From NCBI RefSeq assembly GCF_022865125.1, contig NZ_CP094831.1, positions 1 to 50,674 of the forward strand: 50,674 nucleotides of DNA, given 5' to 3'. Position 1 is the stretch's first letter, and each line of letters starts with the position of its first letter. This DNA comes from Acuticoccus sp. I52.16.1. Its GTDB lineage: Bacteria; Pseudomonadota; Alphaproteobacteria; Rhizobiales; Amorphaceae. A program made the translations under genes and the position numbers. Under the pieces are notes generated by a model. The model had not been told where the DNA came from, did not search any database, and saw only the letters and a program-made list of their open reading frames with translations. Below, piece after piece: positions 10,513-43,557 of the stretch.

Positions 10513-13500
10513 CACTCGCGAGGAGGAGCGCGGCGATGGAAGGCGGATTGTCCGCAGGGCACCGGGTCGGCCTCGCGCGGGGTGGCGCGCCGGGCGCCGG
10601 GCGTCTCGTCGGCCGCCATGCGCCGCGTGATCCGCCGTGCGCCCGCCTCGTCGACGGCCCCCGGCGTCCCCCCGCCCCGCCCCGGCTCGACGACCCTGCC
10701 CCGAGCCGTCTCCACCTCCCGCCCCACGCCGCCCACTCGCGCCGCCGCCGCTGCCGCCGCCGCTGCCCGCGTCGAGACGCCCACCGCTGCCGCGCCCACG
10801 TCCCTCTGCGGGGCACCCGCCCGACCCGAGGCCGCCTCCCGCAGCGGGACGCTCGCCCGTGCCGAGACCACCTCCCGCTGCGGGGCGCTCGCCCGTGCCG
10901 AGGCCACCTCCCGCGGCGGGACGCTCGCCCGTGCCGAGGCCCTCTCTCGCGGCGGGACGCTCGCCCGTGCCGAGGCCCCCTCTCGCGGCGGGACGCTCGC
11001 CCGTGCCGAGGCCACCTCTCGCGGCGGGACGCTCGCCCGCGCCGAGGCCACCTCCCGCAGCGGGGCGCTCGCCCGTGCCGAGGCCACCTCCCGCAGCGGG
11101 ACGCTCGCCCGATCCGAGGCCACCTCTCGCGGCGGGGCGCTCGCCCGTGCCGAGGCCACCTCTCGCGGCGGGACGCTCGCCCGTGCCGAGGCCACCTCCC
11201 GCTGCGGGGCGCTCGCCCGTGCCGAGGCCCCCTCTCGCGGCGGGGCGCTCGCCTGTGCCGAGGCCGCCTCCCGCGGCGGGACGCTCGCCCGACCCGAGGT
11301 CACCTCCCGCGGCGAGATGCTCGCCCGATCCAAGGCCGCCTCCCGCGGCGGGGCACCCGCCTGATCCGAGACTGCCCCCCGAGGCGAGACTGCCCCCCGC
11401 GGCAGGGCGCTCGCCCGTGCCGAGGCCACCTCTCGCGGCGAGGCACTCGCATGGGCCGTGGCCATTTTCCGCGACGGGGAGCTCCGGGGCGGGACGGCAC
11501 CCTCTGGTGCCGAGGCCGCGTCCGGCGGGGCCAGAGCCTTCCGGACCTCGGTCGCCCTTCGCGTCGCGGGCCCGGGCTCCGCGCTTTCCCTGTGTTCGGG
11601 AGAAGCAGCCGGCCGGGGATCCCCCGACCCAACTCGCGACGAGGCGCTGGAGCGGCTGGCGGCTGCGTTCGGCCTCCCGCCCGTCCCACCGATGGCGGCG
11701 GGTCCGGGGCCGCGCGGCTCGGCCCCGGACCCGCCGAGCGCCGCCGCGGACGGCATCGCCCGTGCCTCCCGGCCCCCACTCGGACGATCCCGCCGCGACG
11801 AAGCGGCGCCCGCCGTGGCATCGTGCGGCTCGGCCTCCCGCCCGCGCCGTCCGGTCCCCCGCACCCGAGTGCCCGACGGTTCGAACAGAGCACCGCGTTC
11901 CTCCGCCGCGTGTGTCGCAAGGGGCGCCCGCTCGCGCTGCGGCTCCGCCCGTCGCGCGCCGCTGGCGTCCTCCGCCGCGGCCGGCCGGCGCCGCGGGGCC
12001 GCAGCGACCGCGCGCGTGGCGGGCGTGTCCGGCGCTCCGGTGGATCCTCGGCCCGCGTCGCCCCGCTGCCGAGCCCGGCCGCCGGATGCATCGCGGTTGC
12101 CCCCCTTCTCCGCCCCCGGCGCTTCGGCGCCTCTCCCGTGCGCCGCGGCCTGCGTCCGGTGCCACAGGGGCGAAGCGTCTCGCCGCATGGGTGACGGGCC
12201 CGGCGATCCGGCGACCCCGGCGTGTCCCTCGGCATCGCGCGATCGCCGGTCCGAATGTTCGGCGCGCCCCTCGGCATCGCCCGGCCTCCGGTCCGAGGGT
12301 CCGGCGGGCGCCGCGCCGCGCCTCGGCGAACCGGATACCGCCAGGCCCTCGGCCCCGCCTCCTTGGAGCGCGGCCGGCGGACTATCCCGTGAGGGCGAGG
12401 CGGAGCGCGGCTCGGCGGCGGGGCCCGGCGATCCGGCGGTCCCGGCGTGTCCCTCGGCATCGCGCGATCGCCGGTCCGAATGCTCGGCGCGCCCCTCGGC
12501 ATCGCCCGGCCTCCGGTCCGAGGGTCCGGCGGGCGCCGCGCCGTGCCTCGGCGAACCGGATACCGCCAGGGCCTCGGCCCCGCCTCCTTGGAGCGCGGCC
12601 GGCGGGCTATCCCGCGAGGGCGAGGCGGAGCGCCGCTCGGCGGCCGGGCCCGGCGATCCGGCGGTCCCGGCGTGTCCCTCGGCATCGCGCGATCGCCGGT
12701 TCGAATGCTCGGCGCGCCTCTCGGCATTGCCCGGCCTCCGGTCCGAGGGGCCGGCGGGCGCCGCGCCGCGCCTCGGCGAACCGGATACCGCCAGGGCCTC
12801 GGCCCCGCCTCCTTGGAGCGCGGCCGGCGGACTATCCCGCGAGGGCGAGGCGGAGCGGGGCTCGGCGGCGGGGCCCGGCGGCCTGGACGTTCCGGCTTGC
12901 GCCCCGGCACCGCATGGCCGCCGGGCAGGGCGTTCGATGGGGGCCCCGTGGCCCGGTCGGTCGGCCGCCATCTGGATCCGCGCGGCTCTTGCCTGCCTGG
13001 CGGGCGGCGTCGAGAGGCGTGGGGCCGAGGCGGCAGGATGCTCGGCAGACGGGGGCGGTGACCCGGTCTGGGCATCTCGTGACCGATCGTCCGGGTATTC
13101 GGCGGTGGCTTCCTTGCGGGGCGCGCCGGAGACCGCGGGGGATCCTGCGCAACGTTCCGGCTTCCCGGCCGGCCTCGAACGCTGCGGCGGCGGAGCGGCA
13201 CGTCGCGCGAAGGACGGGCCGGGGGGATCGGCGGGTTCCCCGCGCTCGGCGCTTGGCGGATGGAGGGGGGGAGGCGCGGTGGCGGGGGCACCGTGGTCCG
13301 GAGAGGCCGTCGCCGGCCGGGACCGGGGGTGTTCGTCCTGCGCCGCCGTCGCAGACTGGCGGGGCCGGGGGGATGGGGCGGGCGGTATGCGGCGCGCGGT
13401 CGTCGGCTCGGAGCATCCGTCGTCTCCTTCGCCGTCTCGGGCTCGAGCCTCGCCCCGATCGCCCTGCGGTGCGGGGGAAGGGGGGGCGGCTCTTTCGGGC

Positions 13501-37207: not shown

Positions 37208-38680
37208 TCAGCCCCTCCGCCGCACGGCGTCGACGCCGGCGCGGCGCAGCTGCGGCATCAGCACCGCGGCGAGGGCGAGATAGAGCGCCACCCCGAGCCC
37301 GACCGCGGCGAACATGGCGAGCGCGCCGGCCGCCTCGCCGCCCAGCGCGTCCAGGAAGAGGGCGACGGCGAGGCCCATGACAGCCGCCGCGCCCCAGGGG
37401 ACGAGAAAGCCCGTCACGGCGCCGCGCAGCGACACGTGCAGGCGCGTCAGCATCGCGCGGGCGGCCCACAGGCTCTCGGCGAGGTCGGCGACGAGGCGGG
37501 CGAGACCGGCGCCGATCCCCGCGAAGCCGAGGGTGACCGCCACGCCCAGCCCCAGCACCAGCGCGCCGAGGCCGATCACCCGCTGACCCACCAGATAGGC
37601 CGGCACGCTGCGCGCGTTGAAGGCGGTGGCGACGAGGTCGAACGGCAGCAGCACCGAGGTGCCGATGGCGATGAAGACGGCGATCTCGGCCGCCTCGTCC
37701 CAGCCCGGCCCCGCGACGATCGCGAACAGCGCGCCCGAGATCGCCGCCAGGCCGAGGAAGACCGGGGCGATGGTGGCCGTCGCCACGCTGATGATGAGGG
37801 CGAAGCGGGCGGGAAAATCGGCCTGATCCTGGGCCTTGGCGCGCATGAACTCGAAGGCGGTGTTGTGGGCGATGCCGCGGAAGAGCCCGCGCAGCGGCTC
37901 GGTGAGGCGCAGCGCCATGTTGAACTGGCCCACCGCGGCGACGCTGAAGAAGGCCGCCACGGTGTAGTTGATGACGAAGTAGGCGCTCTCGGTGGCGACG
38001 CGCTGCATGAAGGTGAACATCGAGTAGTGGCGCATCTCGGCGAGGCGGGCGCCGGAGAAGCGCGGCACCACGAGGAGGCGCGCGGTGGCCACGAGCACGC
38101 CCGCCTCGACCACGAGCATGACGCAGCGCATGACGACGATGGCCCACGGCCCGGCGCCGAGGAAGGCGAGCGCGACGGCGACCGCCGACCCGGCGAGCGC
38201 CCCGGCGAGGTTGGCCCGGGCCATCGCCTGGAAGGCGCGGCGGCGCCGCAGGTAGGCGACGAGGATGGTCTGCACGGTCTGCGGAAAGACCACCAGCGAG
38301 GCGACCAGCAGCAGCGGCCAGAAACGCGCGTCGCCGAACACCGGCCCGATGGCGAGCGCCGCCAGCGCCATCAGGGCGAGCGCCAGCGCGCTGCCGGCGA
38401 AGGAGACCGCCGTCGCCGTCTCGAGGTGCTGGCGCTTGAGCACCTTGCGCTGCGCCAGCACCTCGGCGAACGGCATGCCGCCGGTCAGCACCGCGAGGAG
38501 GATGGCGATGCTGTTGGCGAGGCCGGCGAGGCCGAAGTCCTCCGGCAGCATCAGCCGGGCCATGACGATGTTGGCGCCCAGCAGGACGGTGACGCGCATG
38601 AAGGCGCCGGCGACGAGGGCGCCGACCCAGGTCGCCGCGCGCCGGGCGATGCCGCCGCCGGACGTGATCCCGCCGTTCAC
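37208..38680 (-). CDS. Wzx-type polysaccharide flippase (MOP superfamily)
   Basis: The protein has 490 residues with at least 12 membrane segments. The start is GTG 38680, which forms a GTGA overlap with a 39-codon leader frame. The opening MRVTVLLGANIVMARLMLPE-DFGLAGLANSIAI segment is the classical start of Wzx/RfbX-like flippases. The loop with AYLRRRRAFQAMARANLAGA and the late FDLVATAFNARSVPAYLVGQ are also typical. It moves undecaprenyl-linked repeat units across the inner membrane and would serve the Wzy-type polymerase encoded at 10512-16322. It lies between the partition genes and repA, on the opposite strand, so it was probably inserted into the replicon backbone. Confidence 0.93.
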   Translation of the reverse strand: MNGGITSGGGIARRAATWVGALVAGAFMRVTVLLGANIVMARLMLPEDFGLAGLANSIAILLAVLTGGMPFAEVLAQRKVLKRQHLETATAVSFAGSALALALMALAALAIGPVFGDARFWPLLLVASLVVFPQTVQTILVAYLRRRRAFQAMARANLAGALAGSAVAVALAFLGAGPWAIVVMRCVMLVVEAGVLVATARLLVVPRFSGARLAEMRHYSMFTFMQRVATESAYFVINYTVAAFFSVAAVGQFNMALRLTEPLRGLFRGIAHNTAFEFMRAKAQDQADFPARFALIISVATATIAPVFLGLAAISGALFAIVAGPGWDEAAEIAVFIAIGTSVLLPFDLVATAFNARSVPAYLVGQRVIGLGALVLGLGVAVTLGFAGIGAGLARLVADLAESLWAARAMLTRLHVSLRGAVTGFLVPWGAAAVMGLAVALFLDALGGEAAGALAMFAAVGLGVALYLALAAVLMPQLRRAGVDAVRRRG

Positions 38681-38762
38681 GCCTTCCGGCCGTCGCGGTC
38701 CGCGGTCCGGCGCCCGAGCGGGGCGGCGAGGGCCTCACCGGCCGGAAGGCGTGAACGGCGGG
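38669..38762. promoter_or_regulatory. 24-bp perfect inverted repeat enclosing the flippase start
   Basis: Arms at 38669-38692 and 38739-38762 are perfectly complementary over 24 bases, with a 46-base spacer. The left arm covers the GTG start (38678-38680) and first codons of the flippase. In RNA the stem would bury that start. The right arm lies in the upstream leader frame. Stable hairpins of this size are unusual inside a translated region and argue for a regulatory role. Confidence 0.85.
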
Positions 38763-39108: not shown

Positions 39109-40401
39109 ATGGTGAGCTTCAAGCCGCGCAAGGACTTCGCCGCCCTGCGCCTTCACGACAAGAACGCCTACCTCCAGGAGGTGGCGAACGCCTTCCAGCA
39201 GGAGGCGGGCGAGGAGCCCGTGCTGCTGTCGAAGGTCGCCCTGTCGCGCCTGCGCCGGTTCTACTCGCGCCGCTCCTTCGCCGACCTGAAGCTCGAGGAG
39301 ATGGGCGACGGGCTGATGCGCGACACGCTCATCCGCATGGCCGAGGCGATCCACGGCAAGGAGCTGAAGAAGGTCCTCTCCTCCGAGATGCCGGCCACGC
39401 GCGAGGAGGCGGGCGCCGCGCCGCCGCCCGCCCGCGCCGGGACGGGCGGGCCGGCCGGCCGGCCGGCGAGCGCAGGGGGCATGACGAGCGCGGCGGGCGA
39501 GGCGATCCCGCCCGGCCGCATCATCCGCCTCGCCCCCGACGACGACGCCCAGCTCGACTTCTTCGTCCCCCAGCTGCACGACGCGCCGCTGAAGGACGAG
39601 ATGAACCTGATGGACATCGCCCCCTTCGCGCTTTCCAAGGTGCGGCGCGACGGGGTGATCCGCTACGAGCTGAAGGATTCCATCATCACCATCGAGGGCG
39701 GCGCCGAGGTCGGCCTCGCCACCTCCTACGACTACGACATCTTCCTCTCGATGGTGTCCTATCTCGCCGAGGAGGTGCGCCGCTTCCGCATCGAGGAATC
39801 CAAGGGCCGCCGCCCGTCGCTGCCGCCCCCCACCTACCGGCCGAGCGCGACGCAGATCCTGCGCTTCTGCCGCCGCGGCACCGGGGGCAAGCAGTATCTG
39901 GCGCTGGAGGCCGCGCTCGACCGGCTGCAGGCGACGCGCATCAAGATCACCAACCTGTCGGGCGGCAAGCGGCGCGAGACGCAGTCCTTCCCGCTGATCG
40001 GGCGCTACACGGTGATCTCGCGCACCGGACAGGACCACGTCGACCTCGTCGAGATCGACGTGCCGAAGTGGGTCTATGACGGGGTGGTGCAGCCGGACGG
40101 CAAGCCGACCATCCTGACGCTCAACCCGGATTATTTCCTGATCGCGCAGCCGATCGCGCGCTTCCTCTACCGCCTGGCGCGCAAGGCGGCGGGGACCGAC
40201 ACGGCGCACTATACGCTCGACGACCTGCACTACCGCTCCGGCTCGTCGCTGACGCCGGCCAAGTTCCGCCGCAAGGTGGAGGAGATCGTCGAGCGCTCGC
40301 AGACCGAGCCGCTGCCGGACTACGACCTGGCGCTGACGTCGGGCCGGCGGGGGCCGGTGCTGCACATGATCCGCCGCGCAGAGGAGCGCACCGAGGCCTG
40401 A
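39109..40401 (+). CDS. repA: Plasmid replication initiator RepA (RPA family)
   Basis: The protein has 430 residues. Residues 1-100 are a helical N-terminus, followed by an Ala/Gly/Pro linker (about 101-135). The conserved initiator core reads LDFFVPQLHDAPLKDEMNLM, then GLATSYDYDIFLSMVSYLAE (about 200-220), LALEAALDRLQATRIKITNL, and LTLNPDYFLIAQPIARFLYR followed by LARKAAG. This order of blocks matches replication initiator protein A of alphaproteobacterial plasmids, with two winged-helix domains. It should bind the iterons at 42771-43110 and open the AT-rich stretch beside them. Start ATG 39109 has a GGA upstream. The flippase and leader are divergent from it. Confidence 0.92.
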   Translation: MVSFKPRKDFAALRLHDKNAYLQEVANAFQQEAGEEPVLLSKVALSRLRRFYSRRSFADLKLEEMGDGLMRDTLIRMAEAIHGKELKKVLSSEMPATREEAGAAPPPARAGTGGPAGRPASAGGMTSAAGEAIPPGRIIRLAPDDDAQLDFFVPQLHDAPLKDEMNLMDIAPFALSKVRRDGVIRYELKDSIITIEGGAEVGLATSYDYDIFLSMVSYLAEEVRRFRIEESKGRRPSLPPPTYRPSATQILRFCRRGTGGKQYLALEAALDRLQATRIKITNLSGGKRRETQSFPLIGRYTVISRTGQDHVDLVEIDVPKWVYDGVVQPDGKPTILTLNPDYFLIAQPIARFLYRLARKAAGTDTAHYTLDDLHYRSGSSLTPAKFRRKVEEIVERSQTEPLPDYDLALTSGRRGPVLHMIRRAEERTEA

Positions 40402-40536
40402 TCGCCGCGCCCCGGCGATGCGCTTCCGAGGCCTTGCGGCGCCTGATAAAGTCGGCGCCGGGCGGTGTCGGGCAGCCGTATCGACAGCGGCCGGTCCCCT
40501 CGGCCCGGAGCCGGGCGTCGGCGGTTGGGAGACGAG

Positions 40537-41889
40537 ATGAGCGACCTCACGTGGATCGACCATCTGGCTCGGCGCGAGAAGGCGAACGCGGCGCGACAGG
40601 CCGCGCGGGGGGAATGGCTCACGCTGTGGACCGCGCGCGTCCTGCTCGTCGCCACCTACCTCTTCCTCCTCGTCGGGGTGAGCCCGCTGTCGGAGGACAC
40701 GGGCCTGTCGGCCGACGGGGACATGAAGCGCCAGCTCGTGCTGCTGCTGCTGGCGGGCATCGCCGCTCCGCTGCTGCTGGTGCGCTGGCGGTTCGTTATC
40801 GCCCTCCTCGCGCAGGCGTGGGCGCTGCTGCTGGTCTATGCGGCGATCGCGGCGACGACGCTCTGGTCCGCCTATCCCGGCGTCACGATCCGCCGCCTCG
40901 TCGTCTACCTCATCTTCCTGGAGATCGGGCTGGCGCTGGCGGCGGTGCTGCGCAGCCCCAAGCTCTATTTGCCGCCCCTCGTCATCGCCTTCACCGTCAC
41001 GCTCGTGGGGGATTACGCGGTGACCGTGCTGGTGCCGGACCGGGCCTTCACCGCCATCGGCCTCCAGGGGCTGCACCCCGGCAAGAACACGCTGGGCGCG
41101 GTGATGCAGATGATGGTCATCGTCCTCTGCGCCACCCTCCTGGCCGTGCGCACGCCGCTCTTCTTCTGGTCGCTCGTCGTCCTCGTGGTCCTCGCCTTCG
41201 GGCTCCTCGTCCTGTCCCTGTCCAAGACCTCGCTGGCGTTGGCGCTCCTTCTCGGCGTGGTCGTGATCCCGAGCTTCGTCGTCCTGCAGAGCAGCCGCAT
41301 GGCGCTGCTGGCGGCGTTCGCCGCGGGCATCGTGCTGTGCGGGTTCGTCGTCTTCGTGACGGGGGCCTTCTCGCTCGGCGCCGCGGACTGGGCCGAGATC
41401 ATCACCGGCGACGCCACCTTCACCTCACGCGACGAAATCTGGAGCGCCATGACCCGGCACATCGCCGCCGCGCCCTGGTTCGGCTACGGCTGGGGCGCGC
41501 AATGGTCGATGCTGCCGGTCTATCATCCGCTCTGGAACTACGTCGGATTCTGGACGGACAACGACCAGGACCTCAATATCCTGCGCCAATCCCACAACGG
41601 ATATTTGGACATCATGGTGCATGGCGGGCTCTTCCTCGCCAGCTTCGTCACGATATTCTTTCTCCGGGTGATCGCTCTGTTCGTGGCCTCGTTATGGCAG
41701 GGGCCGACCAACCGCTGGAGCCTCGCGGGGACGGTCCTCGTCTTCGCCTCCGTCGTGGCGCTTCTGTTCAATAACATGACCGAATCCAGCCTGTTCTTTC
41801 CCGACAAGCTGATCGGGCAGATTTTCATTCTTTTCGTTTTGGCATTTCACGCTTGGCAGATTGATCAAAATAGAGGACACATTCACTAA
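40537..41889 (+). CDS. O-antigen ligase/polymerase-like membrane protein (Wzy_C type)
   Basis: The protein has 450 residues; GGGAGACGAG precedes ATG 40537. About ten to twelve membrane segments are visible, for example LLVATYLFLLVGV, LLLLAGIAAPLLLV and FFWSLVVLVVLAFGLLVLSL. The large periplasmic loop has GLHPGKNTLGAVMQMM and AAPWFGYGWGAQWSML. The family signature is near the C-terminus: ILRQSHNGYLDIMVHGGLFL, with the conserved His. Members either ligate glycan to lipid A (WaaL) or polymerise exopolysaccharide (ExoQ-like). With a separate Wzy-type polymerase in the window, ligase or a second polymerase are both possible. It follows repA by 135 bp on the same strand. Confidence 0.9.
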   Translation: MSDLTWIDHLARREKANAARQAARGEWLTLWTARVLLVATYLFLLVGVSPLSEDTGLSADGDMKRQLVLLLLAGIAAPLLLVRWRFVIALLAQAWALLLVYAAIAATTLWSAYPGVTIRRLVVYLIFLEIGLALAAVLRSPKLYLPPLVIAFTVTLVGDYAVTVLVPDRAFTAIGLQGLHPGKNTLGAVMQMMVIVLCATLLAVRTPLFFWSLVVLVVLAFGLLVLSLSKTSLALALLLGVVVIPSFVVLQSSRMALLAAFAAGIVLCGFVVFVTGAFSLGAADWAEIITGDATFTSRDEIWSAMTRHIAAAPWFGYGWGAQWSMLPVYHPLWNYVGFWTDNDQDLNILRQSHNGYLDIMVHGGLFLASFVTIFFLRVIALFVASLWQGPTNRWSLAGTVLVFASVVALLFNNMTESSLFFPDKLIGQIFILFVLAFHAWQIDQNRGHIH

Positions 41890-41915: not shown

Positions 41916-42740
41916 ATGGTCAGCACGACATTGAAAAAGGCCGCGGCCCACATTCTGGGGCCCAAAATGATGATCCGCCGGCGTCTTCGCTACGAACTCG
42001 CCGCCGGTGAGCCGGAGCTTCACCTCCTCGCACTGTTTGCCGATGCGCACAGAAGCTTCGTCGATGTCGGCGCCAACGAGGGCGTCTACGCCTGGCACGC
42101 TCGGGGATCCTTCCGGCACCTTTATGTCGTGGAGGCCAATCCCAGCCTCGCCGCCACGCTGCGGCACCTCTTCTCCAGGGCGGAGGCCACCGTCATCGAG
42201 AAAGCCGCCTCCGATCACGCCCAGCCGGCGACGTTCACGATCCCGGTCAAGGCGGGCGAGGACGTGCACAGCCGCGGGTCGCTCGAAGCCCAGACCGACC
42301 CGGACTATGCCAACCGCTCCATCACCGTTCGGGCCGAGCGGCTCGACGCCATGGACCTCGAGAGGGTCGGGCTGATCAAGATCGACGTGGAAGGCCACGA
42401 GATGGCGGCGGTCGAGGGAGCGTCCGGCATCCTCGAACGCGACCGTCCCGTCCTCATCGTGGAGTGCGAGGAGCGCCACCATGCGGGGGGCGTGGCGACC
42501 CTGCTCGCGCACATGAGCGCGCGGGACTACGACCCGTACTACCTGCACCGGGGACAGGTCCGCCCCGGTGCGTCCTACGACGTCGCGGCACTCCAGAACC
42601 CGGACGCGCAGAAGGCGCCGGGAGCCCATCGCTCGCCCGACTACGTCAACAACTTCGTCTTCGTGCACCGGGCGGACGAGAAGAACCGCGCCGCGCTCCT
42701 CGCCGGGGTCCGGCCGCCACAGTCCCTCGCGCCGTCGTAG
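41916..42740 (+). CDS. FkbM-family methyltransferase
   Basis: The protein has 274 residues. The SAM-binding site is SFVDVGANEGVYAWHARGSF (about 47-65) with VVEANPSLAATLRHL following. The family-specific block is GLIKIDVEGHEMAAVEGASG near 150-170, then RPVLIVECEERH. FkbM enzymes O-methylate sugars or polyketides; in this context a sugar hydroxyl of the polysaccharide is the likely target. It begins 26 bp after the ligase-like gene and ends 30 bp before the first origin iteron. The leader is AT-richer than neighbouring sequence (ctaatattatgtcttcgaca). Confidence 0.9.
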   Translation: MVSTTLKKAAAHILGPKMMIRRRLRYELAAGEPELHLLALFADAHRSFVDVGANEGVYAWHARGSFRHLYVVEANPSLAATLRHLFSRAEATVIEKAASDHAQPATFTIPVKAGEDVHSRGSLEAQTDPDYANRSITVRAERLDAMDLERVGLIKIDVEGHEMAAVEGASGILERDRPVLIVECEERHHAGGVATLLAHMSARDYDPYYLHRGQVRPGASYDVAALQNPDAQKAPGAHRSPDYVNNFVFVHRADEKNRAALLAGVRPPQSLAPS

Positions 42741-42759
42741 ATCGCCGCCGCGAGGCTCG

Positions 42760-43215
42760 TGACAAAAACAGCGTACTTCGGTCCGCCCGGATCGACACTT
42801 TTGGCCCGTCGGCCGACCGGGCGGAGGCGTCGCCGTGCCGCTCAGCGGCGAGGGCGGCGCGAAAAGGTCTGACAAAAACAGCGTACTTCAGTCCGCCCGA
42901 ATCGACAATTTGGCGGGCGAATCGCCGGCCTCCGATTCGTGCCAAAAATCGCGTACTTCGGTCCGTCCCAGAAGTGTCGAAGAGGGGCGCGGGAAGGGGC
43001 TGTGGACATTTTTTTTGTCACGCCGGCGCGGACCGTACTTCGGTCCTCCAACGCCGTACATCGTTCCGTCAATCGCGTACATCGTTCCGTCAAAACCGTA
43101 CTTCGGTCCGTGGAGGCCCCGTAACCCTCTGACGCAAAAGGTCGATTTCACCCCTAAAACTAGAGAAAAACTAGAAAAACATATAAAACCTGACAAAAAC
43201 GCCCGAACCGACGAT
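42760..43215. other. Iteron-type origin of vegetative replication (oriV)
   Basis: This interval combines seven iterons, one DnaA-box-like sequence (TGTGGACAT at 43001-43009, two mismatches to TGTGGATAA) followed by eight T residues, and an AT-rich stretch at 43131-43200. The AT-rich part has cctaaaactagagaaaaac and ctagaaaaacatataaaac, strikingly unlike the rest of the window, and is the expected unwinding site next to the iteron row. TGACAAAAAC recurs at 42761, 42870 and 43191. No gene is present. RepA, encoded 2.4 kb upstream, is the expected initiator. This is a prediction from structure. Confidence 0.88.
42771..43110. repeat. Seven 15-bp iterons of the plasmid origin
   Basis: Consensus SCGTACTTCGGTCCG. 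Copies start at 42771, 42881, 42951, 43033, 43054, 43075 and 43096. The last four are spaced exactly 21 bp apart, two helical turns, so initiator molecules would bind on one face. The second copy has one change (CTTCAGTCCG) and those at 43054 and 43075 share CATCGTTCCG. The first three lie in longer repeats that begin TGACAAAAAC (or gtgccaaaaatc) and continue with GTCCGcccg-a/g-atcgac. Confidence 0.93.
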
Positions 43216-43557
43216 TTTCGCGACGCGCCGACACCCCGTTCGGCCCCCCTCCGGCGCCACAAAAACGTCACCCGCCCCTGGACATCGATGACGCGATCGG
43301 CCAGCCTGACGACGCTCGATGGTGCCGATTCTTCACCGCCCTGCCCTGCCCCTCCCTCGATCGCGGACGGGTCGTCACGGGCCACCATCAGCCCGTCACT
43401 CTCCCCACGCACACCCCCCATCGCACTCCCCGTCGTCGCCTCTTCCCGTCGCCGAGAGACCACTCGCACACGCTTCGCCTGTGGGCAGCGCGGAAAGGTC
43501 GAGACGAAGACCTTCGTCGGCGGCGGCGCCCCGCCTCACCGCCACACCGTGTCGGTC
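43216..43557. other. Non-coding interval after the origin
   Basis: The 342 bp between the origin and the next gene contain only GC-rich sequence with scattered ccgtc/cgtcg motifs. I see no convincing gene, hairpin terminator or iteron. It may hold further origin control sequences. Confidence 0.4.

Follow-up and report, generated by a model that had tools for sequence, protein, structure and literature searches.

The stretch of DNA analysed here, referred to as the window, is the whole of contig C4 (50,674 bp) from the 5.53 Mb, six-contig assembly of Acuticoccus sp. I52.16.1, the largest contig of which measures 5.13 Mb. Polysaccharide genes are numerous on C4 and include glycosyltransferases, an epimerase, and flippase-like and O-antigen-ligase-like genes (Pfam scan of 30 hand-picked reading frames). 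Among the initiator families searched for, the contig carries one, a repA of the RPA family; repC (PF03428) is absent from C4, its sole match in the genome being on contig C5, and Rep_3 (PF01051) has no match across the whole genome. The contig ends share no exact overlap of at least 15 bp that would speak for a circular molecule. The features around repA, with the repeats downstream of it, are collected in Table 1.

Table 1. Features of the repA region and of the putative replication origin on contig C4.
Feature	Position	Strand	Evidence or remark
ParA/VirC1-like partition ATPase, same plasmid backbone	36068..36766	+	VirC1 E 3e-22, CbiA 5e-14
Polysaccharide flippase-like gene, between parA and repA	37208..38680	-	Polysacc_synt_3 E 1.7e-35
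repA, replication initiator, Pfam family RPA, 430 aa	39109..40401	+	PF10134 E 4e-61; tblastn matches in 1,098 plasmid records
O-antigen ligase/polymerase-like gene, between repA and putative origin; start codon uncertain	40465..41889	+	Wzy_C E 9.4e-14
FkbM-type methyltransferase gene, between repA and putative origin	41916..42740	+	PF05050 E 2.1e-14
Single iteron 1 in TGACAAAAA context	42760..42785	+	L041 and L051 have a similar context immediately at the repA stop
Single iteron 2 in TGACAAAAA context	42870..42895	+	Motif and profile match
Single iteron 3 in TGCCAAAAA context	42940..42965	+	Motif and profile match
Degenerate DnaA-box-like site ATGTCCACA	43001..43009	-	Two mismatches from TTWTNCACA; just before the main array
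Main array of four iterons spaced exactly 21 bp	43033..43110	+	Motif and profile match
AT-rich tract with AAAAC repeats; presumed unwinding element	43130..43199		Top AT window, AAAAC count

The repA gene is an open reading frame whose product scores 206.9 bits against PF10134 (cut-off 27), RPA being its only Pfam match. An AlphaFold model of RepA, built from a seven-row alignment, is weak (pTM 0.41); searched with Foldseek, it resembles best domains 2–3 of RctB (E 4.9e-8, TM 0.25–0.37) and then RepE (E 6e-3), both of them iteron-binding initiators. A search of solved structures by sequence with the same alignment gave no match at E up to 1. Inspection by eye shows a long inverted repeat at 38676–38760, its arms close to GTTCACGCCTTCCGGCCG, about 350–430 bp upstream of repA.

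Seven iterons, all on the plus strand, start at 42771, 42881, 42951, 43033, 43054, 43075 and 43096; three match SCGTACTTCGGTCCG exactly, two with one mismatch and two with two mismatches. The last four follow one another at steps of 21, 21 and 21 bp, and the first three stand singly, 110 and 70 bp apart, with TGACAAAAA (single iterons 1 and 2) or TGCCAAAAA (single iteron 3) just upstream of the copy. Both the seven copies and the exact 21-bp spacing of four of them, as claimed in the first-pass annotation, are thus present. An open reading frame at 42464–43132 spans the array and was rejected as a gene, as it reads through the repeats. On its own the motif is weak evidence: at up to three mismatches it matches 15 times in the contig, against a mean of 6.2 and a largest count of 15 in shuffled sequence (one of 100 shuffles reaching 15). 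A profile was therefore made from 64 iterons of 11 other loci, the window excluded, and it scores the seven sites at 16.6–30.0 bits and reaches at most 4.3 anywhere else in the contig, with 100 first-order Markov contigs containing at most one site of at least 16.6 bits each (mean 0.05). Because the profile singles out these seven sites and the Markov contigs contain hardly any, the cluster is not a product of chance. By the same profile there is no second array of this kind elsewhere in the contig, and the exact 13-bp core occurs at this single locus in the organism's own genome, with two chromosomal sites one base off. An Rfam scan of the window returned no matches. Three identical motif matches with three mismatches, at 12281–12295, 12506–12520 and 12731–12745, are set 225 bp apart and probably reflect a long repeat in coding sequence that has nothing to do with the origin.

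The array is followed by the 70-bp window that ranks first in AT content on the contig, at 67% compared with a mean of 26%, and AAAAC occurs six times within 43111–43280. The roughly 70 bp of AT-rich DNA reported earlier are therefore there and rank highest, but the description of them as very unlike the rest of the window was too strong, as a second 70-bp window at 41823 reaches 66%. Similarly, the DnaA-box-like site noted in the middle of the segment exists but is a poor one, and no DnaA box with one mismatch or fewer to TTWTNCACA is found in 42701–43300. Cumulative GC skew has its minimum at 23.3 kb and makes no turn at 43 kb, which counts against an origin at 43 kb; on small GC-rich plasmids skew is of little use as a guide, and with its minimum so placed it was dropped as independent evidence for the origin.

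The array lies on the strand of repA without adjoining it, unlike the usual RPA layout. Measured from the end of repA, stop codon included, the first CGTAC core lies at 2,371 bp, the array at 2,633 bp and the AT tract at 2,729 bp, which matches the initial estimate of 2.4 kb with two glycan genes between. How far this departs from the norm was assessed with a tblastn search using RepA, which matched 1,098 plasmid records; in 40 of these a single place accounted for 80% or more of the query. From these 40 rows 25 were taken and joined with six further loci (L041–L046) from the species-genome collection, giving 31 named loci with RepA identities of about 49–66%; they are partly non-independent, with many Rhizobiaceae and with L070 close to L048. 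Iterons stand directly behind the repA stop and on the same strand in 30 of the 31, and 29 of these 30 adjacent loci have at least three iterons at 20–23 bp in an array 27–347 nt from the stop (22 by a strict core pattern, seven more by a loosened one). In L074 the iterons fall within about 220 nt of the stop and the array is irregular. All 30 have, behind the iterons, an AT tract with two to six AAAAC in a 70-bp window of 60–80% AT, and in L041 and L051 the TGA within the TGACAAAA that precedes the first iteron doubles as the stop codon of repA. A DnaA box with at most one mismatch, placed before the array, is found in 15 of the 30 (14/22 and 1/8) and is lacking in the other 15. The one exception among the 31 is Bosea pANAM02 (L068), where the array sits about 5 kb downstream of repA on the opposite strand.

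Since almost all of the named relatives keep their iterons directly behind repA, the 2.4-kb separation on C4 looks derived. A 9-bp repeat, GATCGCCGC, found at 40400 and 42740 on the edges of the intervening genes, was considered as an insertion scar and rejected, with 192 of 3000 random 60-nt pairs having a match as long; because this edge repeat is not significant, we claim no mechanism for the insertion of the two genes. Several relatives have their ParA gene close to repA; on C4, glycan genes seem to have split the plasmid backbone twice, once between repA and the putative origin and once between ParA and repA. Polysaccharide or nucleotide-sugar genes also stand near repA in RPA plasmids of Shinella, Allorhizobium and Rhizobium (L057, L058, L073, L074, L075), hinting that glycan plasmids with RPA initiators are a recurring class.

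The association was also approached from the side of the repeats, by blastn of 42750–43230 (481 bp) against 72,556 plasmid records. Matches were obtained in 22 records, and of the 20 that were listed 18 have E <=2e-5 and two E 0.1; none reaches 80% of the query, and most cover the main array alone (15–40%). Each of the 18 matches at E <=2e-5 has an RPA repA in front of it, reduced in one case to a remnant, although these records include near copies (Rhizobium) and some have repA annotated in pieces. Sequence comparison in this direction therefore bears out the pairing of the iteron with RPA genes across plasmids that the first-pass annotation had proposed to look for. The remnant, of 29 residues, is on Rhizobium binae p6 (L082/L083), adjoining a Tn3-family transposase gene, and no other RepA match occurs in the 25-kb stretch around it; p6 has the appearance of an orphan origin with intact-looking iterons. 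Nor is the paired motif (two iterons 20–22 bp apart, no mismatch) widespread: among 397 genomes from the order, three contain it, namely that of Acuticoccus sp. I52.16.1 together with G348 and G212, and the latter two have the pair beside repA. The layout in G348 is the usual one; in G212 the module is inverted in place behind repA; their RepA proteins are 56–57% identical to the one studied here. Both were found through the pattern and are left out of the adjacency figure. It had been thought that the iteron might be undescribed. It is common to a sub-family of RPA plasmids and not peculiar to the C4 plasmid, and no description of it was recognised in the open PMC literature among the matches listed, as far as titles and the beginnings of abstracts reveal. 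The general layout may reportedly be described already in papers on the pMG101 and pVS1 origins.

If the iterons are read by RepA, their sequence should be expected to follow that of the initiator, and the two were compared on a RepA tree of 37 rows with iteron labels assigned by reading the arrays (L070, with repA in two annotated pieces and a plasmid close to that of L048, was left out). The 3' half of the iteron follows the tree with seven changes, the least possible being six, compared with a mean of 19.5 for shuffled labels and none of 200 shuffles as low. The CCGAC and CCAAT groups form clades, which the TCCG rows fail to do (three changes). C4 RepA groups with L041 and L047, both of the same iteron type, at modest support (84/70). 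Between the TCCG and CCGAC groups (13 rows each, with C4 RepA, G212 and G348 included) 19 RepA positions separate, seven of them within residues 291–309, and 15 of 20,000 random draws were as clustered; because clade and specificity are confounded here, this cluster of residues is a lead only.

The genome of Acuticoccus sp. I52.16.1 offers a further comparison, as it has five RPA genes on four contigs. Besides repA on C4 these are L012 on C3, L013 and L014 on C2, and L015 on C6. Behind L013–L015 are the repeats CGTCACTTCACACACC, CGGGAATCACCCACC and GATTCGCCC..GGGAACC at steps of 21–24 bp, and at L012 there are CGTGTTTTTACCCACC-like repeats by eye, with no regular array found by script; some of these paralogues have TAACACT- or AACTCT-like AT tracts instead of TAAAAC. 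The four are very long-branched in the RepA tree, L013 having been entered as a 117-aa piece, and their placements were not used. Judged by sequence, the unrelated repeats would fit the need of replicons in one cell to be compatible.

Taken together, the iterons, the AT tract and their association with RPA initiators in sequence comparisons make it very likely that 42760–43200 is the oriV of a 50.7-kb plasmid and would act as its origin, in support of the plasmid-origin reading made from the letters. General knowledge of iteron plasmids suggests how initiation would proceed. RepA, made from repA, would diffuse to the four phased iterons at 43033–43110 and bind them; since 21 bp corresponds to two helical turns, the bound monomers would share one face of the DNA. 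Together with host DnaA at or near 43001–43009, RepA would then open the AAAAC tract at 43130–43199, where the helicase would be loaded. The three upstream iterons that stand singly probably give further capacity for binding RepA and may tune copy number. With two polysaccharide genes presumably having come between repA and the module, RepA would act from a distance.

There are other ways to read such repeats. The separation raises the thought that the intervening genes severed the origin from repA, leaving the array as a relic with replication now starting elsewhere. Displacement is indeed uncommon (1/31 named relatives), the DnaA box is degenerate, and Rhizobium binae p6 has an orphan array beside a truncated repA; yet here nothing is missing from the seven iterons, their 21-bp phasing or the AT tract, the reading frame of repA is open, and the contig offers neither a second array of the same kind nor another initiator of the families searched, with one RPA gene and zero repC or Rep_3 matches. 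We consider a relic very unlikely. Slightly less improbable, though still unlikely, is that the repeats are a copy-number or incompatibility locus, or a repA operator, and not the start site itself. Separate control iterons are known from iteron plasmids, F among them, and the three single iterons could be such sites; the main array, on the other hand, is followed by an AT tract as in the relatives, the sites lie 2.4 kb downstream of repA and so away from its promoter, and the profile built from the relatives picks up no further array on the contig.

A ParA-type ATPase is encoded on the same plasmid (36068–36766), and ParA genes occur near repA in several relatives, so the repeats might instead be its partition centromere. 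This is the reading to which we give the least credence, for the 3' half of the iteron tracks the RepA tree, an AT tract is expected of an origin and not of a centromere, and the position of ParA varies among array-bearing relatives, where it is upstream of repA, downstream of the array or unlisted in the stretch (the gene tables being incomplete). The preferred reading remains a RepA-dependent origin at 42760–43200, displaced from its initiator gene. A second displaced array, in pANAM02, and the in-place inversion in G212 suggest from sequence that adjacency of repA and iterons is not needed, and because pANAM02 too is without adjacency, we do not count it as defining an RPA-type replicon.

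With this, the likely origin of a polysaccharide plasmid is placed to within a few hundred bases. The comparison shows that the origin of RPA-family plasmids is usually found behind repA and that its iterons track the tree of the initiator, which makes RPA compatibility groups testable. It also suggests that cargo can be inserted between initiator and origin, a point of weight for cutting out minimal replicons, as repA and its direct neighbourhood would miss the likely origin on C4. A wider scheme is conceivable, which we put forward tentatively and with considerable doubt: RPA iterons may form a two-part code, one half being near-constant (mostly CGTAC-A/T-TC) and the other clade-specific (TCCG, CCGAC, CCAAT, CTAT or CGGAC), the latter read by a variable beta-hairpin of RepA (~291–309) that would set compatibility. 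The origin would then be a free cis-module able to withstand being inverted or displaced by cargo, and the sequence of repA alone could suffice to predict incompatibility groups. The code-like split of the iteron and the clade-marking residues 291–309 of RepA could be the novel elements.

Among known systems, the C4 plasmid is very probably a replicon of a known kind, with an ordinary origin in a slightly unusual arrangement. It differs from repABC replicons in missing the repC initiator that defines them, and from iteron plasmids of the Rep_3 type (RepE, pi kind) in lacking the Rep_3 domain, with a weak resemblance to the RepE fold remaining. Phased direct repeats beside an AT tract also make up the iteron origins of F, RK2, R6K and Vibrio chromosome 2, and in RK2 the initiator and origin are likewise apart; the initiators of these four belong to other families than RPA. 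Closer comparisons are found within the RPA plasmids. In Rhodopseudomonas palustris CGA009 pRPA, RepA is 52% identical, and four iterons at 21 bp, a perfect DnaA box and an AAAAC tract stand directly behind repA, the iteron being CGTCTATCGCGGAC as against CGTACTTCGGTCCG in C4. Bosea sp. ANAM02 pANAM02 is like C4 in having an array apart from repA and then an AAAAC tract, which is the top AT window of a 41-kb stretch, and its array is linked by blastn to the repA-adjacent array of MesoLj131b5; it is unlike C4 in that the array is about 5 kb off on the opposite strand, with one of its four repeats recognised by eye only, and in that the plasmid measures 692 kb. Further examples are four RPA plasmids of Hyphomicrobiales, Agrobacterium pusense pC, Rhizobium beringeri pRlX4, Mesorhizobium MesoLj131b5 and Aureimonas pAU20e, with RepA 56–58% identical over 98–99% of the length. 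They share with C4 the TCCG-type iterons, the 21–22 bp steps, the AAAAC tract, the order and the strand; their iterons start directly behind the repA stop, whereas in C4 two glycan genes intervene.
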